Shown one piece after another: positions 2,974 to 5,501 of a stretch of 5,501 nucleotides of DNA. The stretch is taken from the NCBI GenBank assembly GCA_041623475.1, contig JBFJWU010000241.1, positions 1-5,501 on the forward strand, written 5' to 3'. How positions within the stretch are numbered: the first letter of the stretch is position 1; each line of letters opens with the position of its first letter. A program made the position numbers and the translations under genes. The stretch is from JBFJWU01 sp041623475 [NCBI: bacterium]. Lineage in GTDB: Bacteria > J088. The notes below the pieces were generated by a model. The model was given only the letters and a program-made list of their open reading frames with translations, did not search any database and was not told the origin of the DNA.

Positions 2974-3054
2974 ACCTGACCGGTCCGGTCCGGGCCCTGC
3001 GGCCACTCTTCTAAAATTTTACCAATCGGCAAAAACAGATACGGGGTTTCATGT

Positions 3055-3074
3055 TTTACCAACCATTTGGTAAA
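3055..3074. promoter_or_regulatory. Inverted repeat, probable operator
   Basis: A perfect 8-base inverted repeat, TTTACCAA and TTGGTAAA, is separated by the 4-base spacer CCAT. Its size and symmetry fit a dimeric repressor or activator such as a TetR- or MarR-type protein, but I do not recognise the motif as the site of a named regulator. The right arm overlaps a candidate -35 hexamer, so binding would be expected to affect initiation of the FAD monooxygenase and squalene synthase-like genes. It is unlikely to be a terminator, because it is A+T-rich, lies 80 bases past the NRDE stop and has no T-tract after it. Confidence 0.6.
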
Positions 3075-3095
3075 CATAAGTAGTTGCAATAAAAG
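3067..3095 (+). promoter_or_regulatory. Candidate sigma-70-type promoter
   Basis: TTGGTA at 3067-3072 matches the -35 consensus at 4 of 6 positions. After a 17-base spacer, TAAAAG at 3090-3095 matches the -10 consensus at 4 of 6. Transcription would start near 3102, about 60 bases before the GTG start. The match is modest and other pairings in this A+T-rich stretch, such as one starting from TTGCAA at 3084, cannot be excluded. Confidence 0.3.
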
Positions 3096-3128
3096 GAAAA
3101 ATCATGTTAGCGTCATGCGCCATGAGGT

Positions 3129-3147
3129 CTGGTTAATTTTTTACCAG
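3129..3147. repeat. Second short inverted repeat before the ribosome site
   Basis: CTGGT at 3129-3133 and ACCAG at 3143-3147 are complementary arms around an A/T-only spacer of ten bases. The right arm contains the third TTTTACCA copy and ends just before the Shine-Dalgarno sequence. It could be a degenerate second operator of the same type as 3055-3074 but with the half-sites in the opposite order, or a weak hairpin in the 5' leader. Five-base arms are short enough to arise by chance. Confidence 0.3.
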
Positions 3148-3148
3148 C

Positions 3149-3153
3149 GGAGG
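3149..3153 (+). promoter_or_regulatory. Shine-Dalgarno sequence that fixes the GTG start
   Basis: GGAGG, followed by further G residues, lies 10 bases before the GTG at 3164. An in-frame TAA at 3134 and the absence of any earlier start-type codon after it leave this GTG as the only upstream choice. It is followed directly by a normal N-terminus leading to the FAD-binding strand. Confidence 0.75.
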
Positions 3154-3163
3154 GGCGGACGCA

Positions 3164-4531
3164 GTGACAGATCTGAAAAAGCGGCTTGATGTTGATATTG
3201 TTGTCGTCGGGGGCGGGCCGGTTGGCGCACTAGCCGCCCTTGGCTTTGCCAACGCCGGAGCCAGCGTTGTGATTGCGGAACAGGCACCGGGCGCATCACG
3301 ACGCCTGGCTGGCGAATGGATTCATCCGGATGGTTACCGGATCCTGAGGCAAATTGCCGGCGATCCACCAGCCGGGGTCCGAACTCGTGGTTTTATTGTC
3401 ATTCCTGATGACGGCAGTCCAGACATCGTCCTGGATTATGGAGGTGGGTCGTCCGGGCTGTGTGTTCAACATCATCTTCTTGTGGCGTGGCTGAGAGAGC
3501 TGATCGCCGCTCATCCCGGCGTTCAGCTTGAATTTGGCGCTCGTGCTTCGATTCGAGATGGACGAGTCATATTGGATTCCAGTAGTGGCCAGATAGAGGT
3601 ACGTGCGGACCTGATTGTGGCGGCAGATGGTCGTTCGTCCAGGATCGAACAAAAGACCCAGGGGCGTCGGGCGACGATGCAAATGTCCTGGACCGGCGGG
3701 CTTTTGATTGACGACCCAGGTCCCGATGCAGGTCCATATGGTCGCGTGTTCCTGGGAGGGCCGGGACCCGTGTTGTTGTATCCGGTGGGTGACGGGTTCC
3801 GGCTGACATTTGACCTGCCTGCGACGTCGCATCGCGCGTCGCGTAATCCCGATGCCTGCTTGAAGATTCTGCAAGCGGTTCTGCCCGAATATTTTCACAA
3901 ATCGATCAGCCACGCGATCCGAACACAGGGCGTGCAATGGGCTGCATGCGGGTTCAGGCCACGGACTCGATTCGGGCAGGGAAACATTGTCCTTGCAGGC
4001 GATGCCGCGGGCTACTTTCATCCACTTACTGCAGCTGGATTGACTCTTGGATTTCAAGATGTTGCAACGATGATCGCAAATGAGCCGGAGCGATATCGCG
4101 CCCTTCGATATCGGCAATGTGTGCCGTCGGAACTGTTATCCAACGCGCTGTACCTGGTGATGTCCGGGCACGGAACTGGGGCAGCTGTCATACGAAGCCA
4201 GGTACTGGACTCCTGGCGCAACAATCCGGAGATCAGGCGCGAAACAATTTCGCTTCTGGCGTGCGAAGAAATGTCGGTGGTGGCATTTAGCAAGGTTTTT
4301 TCGTCGCTGGGTATGCGCGCTGTGTTTGGACAACCGGGACTCAGTAGGTCTGAGGTGCTGCGCGGAATCAATCAAATCAGGACTTGGGGAACGTGGCCGC
4401 TGGGGGCGGTTGCGACGTTGGCCGGGTCATCAGCTACTCGACTGCGCACAAGGGTTCCTGCTGCGTCGTTTGAAGCCGCAGGGATCCTGCACCGTCGAGA
4501 ACCAGCAAACTTGCGTGGAGGAATTTCATGA
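3164..4531 (+). CDS. Squalene-epoxidase-like FAD-dependent monooxygenase
   Basis: This 455-residue flavoprotein belongs to the UbiH/squalene epoxidase class A monooxygenase group. The N-terminal dinucleotide fold shows DIVVVGGGPVGA (11-22) with Glu39 at the end of the second strand as ribose ligand. RLAGEWIHPDGYRIL (47-61) closely resembles the (V)GE-L-QPGGY signature of squalene epoxidases. The DG motif is IVAADGRSSRIE (151-162), and the second FAD motif is NIVLAGDAAGYFHPLTAAG (274-292), where HPLTAAG compares with HPLTGGG in squalene epoxidases. The length suits a prokaryotic epoxidase without the long N-terminal extension of animal enzymes. Expected reaction: O2- and reductant-dependent epoxidation of squalene or a related polyprenoid at the membrane. 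The ATGA overlap with a squalene synthase-like gene supports this. Alternatives are a quinone-pathway hydroxylase or another polyprenoid oxygenase. The FAD monooxygenase call is firm, squalene as substrate less so. Confidence 0.85.
   Translation: MTDLKKRLDVDIVVVGGGPVGALAALGFANAGASVVIAEQAPGASRRLAGEWIHPDGYRILRQIAGDPPAGVRTRGFIVIPDDGSPDIVLDYGGGSSGLCVQHHLLVAWLRELIAAHPGVQLEFGARASIRDGRVILDSSSGQIEVRADLIVAADGRSSRIEQKTQGRRATMQMSWTGGLLIDDPGPDAGPYGRVFLGGPGPVLLYPVGDGFRLTFDLPATSHRASRNPDACLKILQAVLPEYFHKSISHAIRTQGVQWAACGFRPRTRFGQGNIVLAGDAAGYFHPLTAAGLTLGFQDVATMIANEPERYRALRYRQCVPSELLSNALYLVMSGHGTGAAVIRSQVLDSWRNNPEIRRETISLLACEEMSVVAFSKVFSSLGMRAVFGQPGLSRSEVLRGINQIRTWGTWPLGAVATLAGSSATRLRTRVPAASFEAAGILHRREPANLRGGIS
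4517..4522 (+). promoter_or_regulatory. Shine-Dalgarno sequence inside the upstream gene
   Basis: GGAGGA lies 5 bases before the ATG at 4528, within the last codons of the monooxygenase gene. With the ATGA overlap it fixes the start of the synthase gene and implies that the two proteins are made together, by reinitiation as well as by direct loading. Confidence 0.75.
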
Positions 4532-5501
4532 ATGGTGTTCATCACGACTGGCAATACTGCTGCGAGGCATTGCAACAAGTGTCGCGGTCGTTTGCGATTC
4601 CGATCTCGATGCTGCGGGACGAACTTAAGGTATCGGTTACTTGCGGGTATCTATTGTGCAGGGTCGCGGATTGGATCGAGGATGACCCGATCCTGGATCC
4701 GATTGCCCGCGAGGGACTGTTCCTTAAATATCTGGCGTATCTCGATGGCACTGTGACTACAAAGGGATTCTGCGCGACATTACCAAACCGCGATGCCGGC
4801 GACCCCGAGTACGACCTGGCCCGCAACCTTGACCGAATCGACCGTGTCCTGGCAACTTTGTCGATTGACCAGCAGGCTGCCTTGCGGCAATGGGTTGCAG
4901 AAATGACACGGGGAATGATGGTGTTCAGCCACCGCGTTCCTGGTTCCACTGACGGGATCGTGGCCTTGCTGACCCACGGAGATCTGGATCGTTACTGCTA
5001 CTTTGTTGCCGGGACTGTCGGGCACATGTTGACGGACCTGTTTGTATTCGCGCAGCCGACGATTCCGGATCCGGTGAAACTGGAGCTTCGAAAATACGCC
5101 GAAGGGTTCGGGATGGCCCTGCAACTTGTCAACATCCTCAAAGATGTTGCCGAAGACATGGCGCGTGGATGGTCGTTTATTCCCCGCAGTTGCTACGCAG
5201 ATGCCGGGATAGATGTGCAATCATTTTCGGACCCGGGACACCGATTACGGGTGCACAATGCCCTTATCCCGGTCATCGGCCGAGCGAAGGCCCTGATGGA
5301 TGATGCATTCGACTACAGCGTACGAATCCCGGAGTCAGAGCGGGACATTCGGATGTTTTGCCTGGTGCCGTTGTGGATGGCAATCGAAACTCTGAAGCTG
5401 ATTCCCGGCAACGACCTTTTGTTTGACCCGGTCCAGTCGGTTAAGGTGCCGCGGGAGGCAGTTGCCAGCATTGTGGCTGAATGCCAGCAAGTTGCAGCAA
5501 A
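4528..5501 (+). CDS. Squalene/phytoene synthase family protein, squalene synthase type, 3'-partial
   Basis: The frame is open from the ATG at 4528 to the window end, giving 324 residues with no stop. It is an all-alpha head-to-head prenyl synthase. SRSFAIPISML (19-29) is the usual N-terminal signature. The first Asp-rich motif is RVADWIEDD (45-53), matching DTxEDD of squalene synthases better than DDxxD of phytoene synthases. RYCYFVAGTVG (155-165) is the central family motif, and the second Asp-rich motif is NILKDVAEDMARGWSFIP (202-219). Expected reaction: two farnesyl diphosphates condense through presqualene diphosphate to squalene, using Mg2+ and NADPH. Phe159 occupies the position that is Tyr in the YVAG of human squalene synthase and plant phytoene synthases, so product type should be tested. 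Dehydrosqualene or phytoene synthase are the alternatives. Bacterial members are often near 350 residues, so little may be missing. Pairing with the epoxidase-like gene favours squalene. Confidence 0.9.
   Translation, partial: MNGVHHDWQYCCEALQQVSRSFAIPISMLRDELKVSVTCGYLLCRVADWIEDDPILDPIAREGLFLKYLAYLDGTVTTKGFCATLPNRDAGDPEYDLARNLDRIDRVLATLSIDQQAALRQWVAEMTRGMMVFSHRVPGSTDGIVALLTHGDLDRYCYFVAGTVGHMLTDLFVFAQPTIPDPVKLELRKYAEGFGMALQLVNILKDVAEDMARGWSFIPRSCYADAGIDVQSFSDPGHRLRVHNALIPVIGRAKALMDDAFDYSVRIPESERDIRMFCLVPLWMAIETLKLIPGNDLLFDPVQSVKVPREAVASIVAECQQVAA

Follow-up and report, generated by a model that had tools for sequence, protein, structure and literature searches.

The window analysed here, the whole 5,501-nucleotide stretch of contig JBFJWU010000241.1 from the bacterium JBFJWU01 sp041623475, ends in two overlapping genes, the first for a squalene epoxidase (SE) and the second for a squalene synthase (SQS), and with this pair a bacterial pathway to sterols or cyclic triterpenols very probably begins. 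Most likely the two are the first genes of a squalene-to-sterol operon with the cyclase gene past the window edge, because the SE-SQS units of two related loci, L045 and L017, run on into genes for 3-hydroxy-3-methylglutaryl coenzyme A (HMG-CoA) reductase and cyclase. An earlier description made from the letters alone (the sequence-only reading) had proposed an ATGA overlap between a flavin adenine dinucleotide (FAD) monooxygenase and a prenyl synthase, in the order oxygenase then synthase. Its coordinates were right, four bases being common to the two frames, and both frames lie on the plus strand in that order (Table 1). All four motifs that it named were found, GEWIHPDGY from residue 50 and HPLTAAG from residue 286 of the epoxidase, and DWIEDD from residue 48 and DVAED from residue 206 of the synthase.

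The FAD protein matched the Pfam models FAD_binding_3 (6e-20) and SE (PF08491; 43.7 bits, cut-off 20.1), the second of which is weak evidence taken alone because this unspecific model also exceeds its cut-off in E. coli and Caulobacter, two of the 14 control genomes. In a sequence search of solved structures the best match was human SQLE (6c6n, 8e-20) and the next was of PqsL type (3.5e-8). The flavin-site motif GDAxxxxHPLTxxG is a mark of squalene epoxidases and reads GDAAGYFHPLTAAG in the window protein; the pattern GDAxxxxHP[LMI][TS] is found in 82 of the 83 rows of the SE set, with one row giving no match. Against a profile made from 82 relatives, with the window left out, the protein scored 387 bits, and the more distant epoxidases L089 and L090, which belong to the class of L007 and each adjoin a cyclase, reached 241 and 187 bits. 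In the maximum-likelihood tree all 31 epoxidase rows including the window formed one group (99/99), so that the protein takes its place among squalene epoxidases together with the cyclase-linked bacterial ones. The AlphaFold model (pLDDT 87.5, 48 rows) found its best structural match in human SQLE, with Z 40.1 over 410 residues (model residues 8-422). The modelled protein shares the human SQLE fold including the C-terminal helical part, a likeness that by itself does not show function.

The second protein matched Pfam SQS_PSY at 8e-42 (144 bits, cut-off 26) with both aspartate-rich motifs kept, and scored 356 bits with a squalene synthase profile from which it had been left out, where the Salinibaculum and Caballeronia proteins scored 248 and 223. 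In the synthase tree its sister group (96/96) consists of ten synthases that either adjoin an epoxidase or are fused to one; nine come from Myxococcota and the tenth from a metagenome-assembled genome (MAG; L017). Its identity is 41-45% to six epoxidase-paired synthases (five Myxococcota, one MAG) and 30-35% to the eight other synthases aligned, carotenoid and hopanoid enzymes apart. A common origin with the SE-SQS unit of Myxococcota is supported by the synthase tree.

What such epoxidases are usually found with was read from relatives retrieved with the epoxidase as the only criterion; cyclases played no part in the choice. The scan covered one genome per species and was queried with an alignment of the window protein and those of a Planktothrix and a Streptomyces plasmid; with the window epoxidase alone the genome scan returned no relatives. 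The 82 loci compared are the best 80 of 235 relatives plus the two plasmid loci, and counts therefore describe the best-scoring part. By domain-level profiles, 77 of these loci contain a cyclase domain. In 73 of them it shows DCTAE, or DCTGE in the case of Streptomyces; three more (L043, L063, L067) are fused fragments lacking this motif, and one (L073) is a squalene-hopene-type enzyme with DIDDTA. Five loci (L006, L009, L015, L016, L081) lack a cyclase domain. Sorted by reading frame, 59 of the 82 carry an SE-cyclase fusion, eight (seven Myxococcota and L017) an SE-SQS fusion, and 15 an epoxidase with neither, some of these last frames being cut by contig ends. An SE-SQS unit was seen in ten relatives (L006, L009, L014, L016, L017, L018, L022, L045, L065, L081), and in L016 and L045 the epoxidase gene is likewise followed by an overlapping synthase gene. 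The Myxococcales locus L045 continues with HMG-CoA reductase, cyclase and polyprenyl synthase, and in L017 the fusion is followed by a gene resembling 3-beta-hydroxysteroid dehydrogenase (3-beta-HSD), HMG-CoA reductase, a cytochrome P450 (P450) and a cyclase. The gene is uncommon in the two groups surveyed: among 369 genomes of the class to which L007 belongs (Gammaproteobacteria), 6 matched the window epoxidase at E up to 1e-15, and among 282 of the phylum of L045, 19 did so at E up to 1e-30. Both counts include the centre genomes, known beforehand to carry the epoxidase, and in most genomes scoring was limited to a few top first-look candidates. A scan of viral contigs gave no relatives of the epoxidase and a single stretch encoding a relative of the synthase. 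Matches to the window's TANGO2-family gene were best in the class of L007 (top E 4.5e-51 at 43%, with 44% as the highest identity in the top rows; 78 of 369 genomes at E up to 1e-20), a little lower in the phylum of L045 (top E 1.5e-45 at 42%; 38 of 282) and lowest among the relatives of a third group, G002 (top E 3.5e-26 at 39%; 7 of 39 at E up to 1e-15), a mild lean towards a gammaproteobacterial host.

Other identities for the two proteins were weighed against these results. That the first is a UbiH-type quinone hydroxylase, or a flavin reductase or halogenase standing before a prenyl synthase by chance, is very improbable. Its best NCBIfam matches are indeed UbiH/UbiF models, but far under the cut-off (61.7 of 459 bits), and two epoxidases from cyclase loci, L045 and L031, match the same model types equally weakly. 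Other monooxygenase and halogenase folds also match well: p-hydroxybenzoate hydroxylase, the next fold family, gave Z 33.8 over 353 residues and ends at model residue 371, and brominase and halogenase rows extend to residues 398-411 at Z 33.0 or less. Human SQLE is nevertheless ahead by 6 Z units, and the halogenase reading, compared at the level of fold, has brominase Bmp2 as its best row at 33.0 against 40.1. The window motif contrasts with the G[DN]AxxxxHP[LV]A seen in 7 of 9 UbiH rows (the pattern gave no match in two). In the profile of relatives nine UbiH-family proteins scored at most 71 bits and six geranylgeranyl reductases at most 50, and in the tree these nine (100/99) and six (99/95) rows fall outside the epoxidases; on profile and tree the UbiH and reductase identities were set aside. 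It is just as hard to credit that the second protein is a phytoene, dehydrosqualene or presqualene diphosphate synthase (CrtB, CrtM, HpnD) of a carotenoid or hopanoid pathway. In alignment DVAED comes close to the motif DVGED found in Thermus CrtB, CrtM and HpnD, and the HpnD model TIGR03465 gives 63 bits, but DVAED is present also in Polyangium synthases beside fusions of SE and oxidosqualene cyclase (OSC). Identity is 20-24% to CrtB (two), CrtM and HpnD against the 41-45% given above, the squalene synthase profile gives CrtB (two), CrtM, HpnC and HpnD at most 88.3 bits, and the tree places the protein outside these five rows with full support (100/100), which answers the concern that it might group with phytoene synthases. 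Phytoene synthase and HpnD were accordingly discarded as identities on profile and tree.

Several observations weigh against the operon proposed here. The window stops inside the synthase gene with the organism's own cyclase not seen. A search of the L016 genome (3.1 Mb; the locus lies on a 5.1-kb contig) gave no cyclase match, and the only cyclase in the fetched locus of L073 is of the squalene-hopene type. The window epoxidase is a long branch, none of the homologues found being more than 40% identical to it, and a shift of its substrate is for that reason conceivable. In the epoxidase tree a branch with support 99/97 separates the window from the SE-cyclase fusions, and in the AU test a single clade of the window with the SE-SQS rows was not rejected (p-AU 0.41); grouping with the SE-OSC fusions was likewise not rejected (p-AU 0.17), the window row being a long branch. 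The synthase falls below the cut-off of the NCBIfam equivalog TIGR01559 (119.2 against 286.75 bits). All four other prokaryotic synthases tried (L045, L031, L103 and L017, the last as a domain cut from its fusion) also score below it, at 106-144 bits, and three of them (L045, L031, L017) come from loci with epoxidase and cyclase, so the cut-off excludes this prokaryotic type; the window protein is filed as SQS-type and not as a TIGR01559 member. There is a slight chance that squalene and its epoxide are made and never cyclised by an oxidosqualene cyclase, giving linear epoxysqualene or an oxidised triterpenoid by another route. The divergent epoxidase, the lack of a cyclase inside the window, the L016 genome and the pairing of an epoxidase with a DIDDTA cyclase in the one locus of L073 would fit this; against it stand the DCTAE/DCTGE cyclases of 73 loci and the cyclase match found elsewhere in the genome for four of the five cyclase-less loci (in L015 a partial match, motif not seen). 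The linear epoxide put forward by the sequence-only reading finds little support, since 9 of the 10 relatives with an SE-SQS unit have a cyclase, six in the same locus and three elsewhere in the genome, and only L016 shows none. A small but appreciable chance is left to a different product, in which an old SE-SQS unit, shared with Myxococcota but carried by a bacterium outside the known sterol producers, with its own repressor and an unusually divergent epoxidase, would serve a triterpenoid other than a common sterol.

The squalene-to-sterol route itself, from farnesyl diphosphate to squalene and then to an oxidised product as previously proposed, is backed by both trees and by the cyclases of the relatives. 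From its family and its aspartate-rich motifs, the synthase would condense two molecules of farnesyl diphosphate head to head, giving squalene. The epoxidase, to judge by family and fold a flavoprotein monooxygenase whose C-terminal part is helical, would then use FAD, a reductant and O2 to form 2,3-oxidosqualene. The ATGA overlap may couple translation of the two genes. An oxidosqualene cyclase, as in most relatives, would fold the epoxide into a sterol-type skeleton, and its gene would be expected either further downstream or at another place in this genome.

Of the five reading frames in the window, all on the same strand, three precede the pair, and a gap of 190 bp (2974-3163) separates the TANGO2-family gene from the epoxidase gene. 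This gap holds a perfect palindrome and further half-sites (Table 1), and a repressor bound to the palindrome may govern the operon. None of 200 shuffles of the window held a copy even with three mismatches. No copy with two or fewer mismatches was present in 1.64 Mb of other loci scanned, and at three mismatches four sites were found (L005, L039 with two, and L113). No regulator gene was recognised within the window. The claim that the pair stands behind its own controlled promoter is therefore upheld in part: the palindrome and half-sites favour it, but a scan for sigma-70-type promoters gave no hit and the palindrome is unrepeated, within two mismatches, in the other loci scanned. The palindrome suggests a separate, regulated promoter, as a candidate only.

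Table 1. Features of the window and their coordinates.
Feature	Position	Strand	Remarks
Unassigned gene, 3' end only	1-1158	same as pair	no Pfam or NCBIfam matches
Alpha/beta hydrolase gene	between unassigned and TANGO2-family genes	same as pair	Pfam Abhydrolase_3, 3e-61
TANGO2-family gene	2182-2973	same as pair	
Extra half-site TTTACCAA, upstream of palindrome	3018-3025	+	
Perfect palindrome TTTACCAA-CCAT-TTGGTAAA	3055-3074		8-base arms, 4-base spacer; candidate TetR-type operator
Extra half-site TTTACCA, near epoxidase start	3140-3146	+	
Shine-Dalgarno-like GGAGGGG, epoxidase gene	3149-3155	+	read from sequence
Squalene epoxidase (squalene monooxygenase), FAD-dependent	3164-4531	+	455 residues, GTG start; Pfam, structure match, tree, AlphaFold model
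Shine-Dalgarno-like GGAGG, synthase gene	4517-4521	+	read from sequence
ATGA overlap, synthase start and epoxidase stop	4528-4531	+	
Squalene synthase, 3'-open at window end	4528-5501	+	at least 324 residues, ATG start; Pfam SQS_PSY, tree

Several arrangements in the relatives' loci were recorded alongside. The SE-SQS fusions carry a linker of 236-379 residues between the two domains, and in five of the eight (L018, L017, L081, L014, L065) it clearly matched the C-terminal part of the cyclase profile (47.9, 36.5, 29.5, 18.6 and 17.6 bits), the other three giving 7.2, 2.5 and -1.0 bits and the controls, 400 shuffles and 8 reversed sequences, at most 0.9. A QW-like motif is present in the linker, which resembles the remnant of a cyclase between the two enzyme domains. 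Longer fusions also occur. In the Myxococcota locus L038 a frame of 1556 residues (1086-5753) lies upstream of an SE-cyclase fusion and combines HMG-CoA reductase, polyprenyl synthase, squalene synthase and a 3-beta-HSD-like domain, and in L029, from a Candidatus Versatilivorator MAG, a frame of 1524 residues (9935-14506) joins squalene epoxidase, cyclase and sterol methyltransferase. In L019 (7500-9863) squalene synthase forms one protein with an NAD-dependent epimerase/3-beta-HSD-like domain, and an SE-cyclase fusion lies downstream of it; frames of similar length are found in L023, L024, L027 and L040, the Pfam scan covering that of L019. The L073 epoxidase lies at 752-2176 and its DIDDTA cyclase at 7427-9499. 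The plasmid loci L001 (Planktothrix agardhii p2) and L002 (Streptomyces sp. YIM 121038) both hold an epoxidase, a DCTAE/DCTGE cyclase, a squalene synthase and transposase genes, with three annotated P450 genes alongside in Planktothrix, and are possibly mobile oxidosqualene-type clusters.

Among described systems, the sterol cluster of Sandaracinus amylolyticus (Myxococcota), in which committed sterol genes stand beside isoprenoid precursor genes, is set out in PMC12004948. Like the Myxococcota, the window has epoxidase then synthase, overlapping as in L016 and L045 where seven Myxococcota loci and L017 have them fused; unlike the fusions, its genes are separate and without the long linker, and unlike the Myxococcota clusters, the pair stands behind an alpha/beta hydrolase and a TANGO2-family gene, with an epoxidase at most 40% identical to any found. 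MsbE, from a sponge gammaproteobacterium, is a bifunctional squalene epoxidase/sterol cyclase according to PMC7074536, fused squalene monooxygenase (SMO)/OSC proteins are mentioned in PMC10070321, and PMC10202945 reports both genes in 103 isolates and 21 MAGs. The 59 SE-cyclase relatives are of this type, MsbE itself lying outside the comparison, whereas the window epoxidase is unfused to a cyclase and paired with a squalene synthase. With human SQLE (6c6r, 6c6n, 6c6p) the window protein has in common the fold over 410 residues and the motifs GExxxPxGY and GDAxxxxHPLTxxG, at 19% identity over the fold. The human enzyme has an N-terminal regulatory region, for which the window protein, with its FAD motif from residue 16, has no room. 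In the parts available of the open-licence literature searched (PMC7074536, PMC10202945, PMC10070321, PMC4919349, PMC12004948, PMC10152446) an epoxidase-synthase fusion is nowhere named. The window pair is a divergent representative of a known, uncommon bacterial pathway and not a new type, because bacterial SE/OSC clusters and fusions are already in print.

Bacterial sterol-type lipids bear on the origin of eukaryotic sterols (PMC12004948) and on the reading of sterane fossils (PMC10070321). The window alone does not alter the overall picture of bacterial sterol genes, and adds to it a divergent branch of the bacterial epoxidase. Together with the ten related loci it shows that squalene synthase and the epoxidase are able to move together as a unit, either as overlapping genes or as a fusion, and this unit offers a simple marker for finding more oxygen-dependent triterpenoid pathways.

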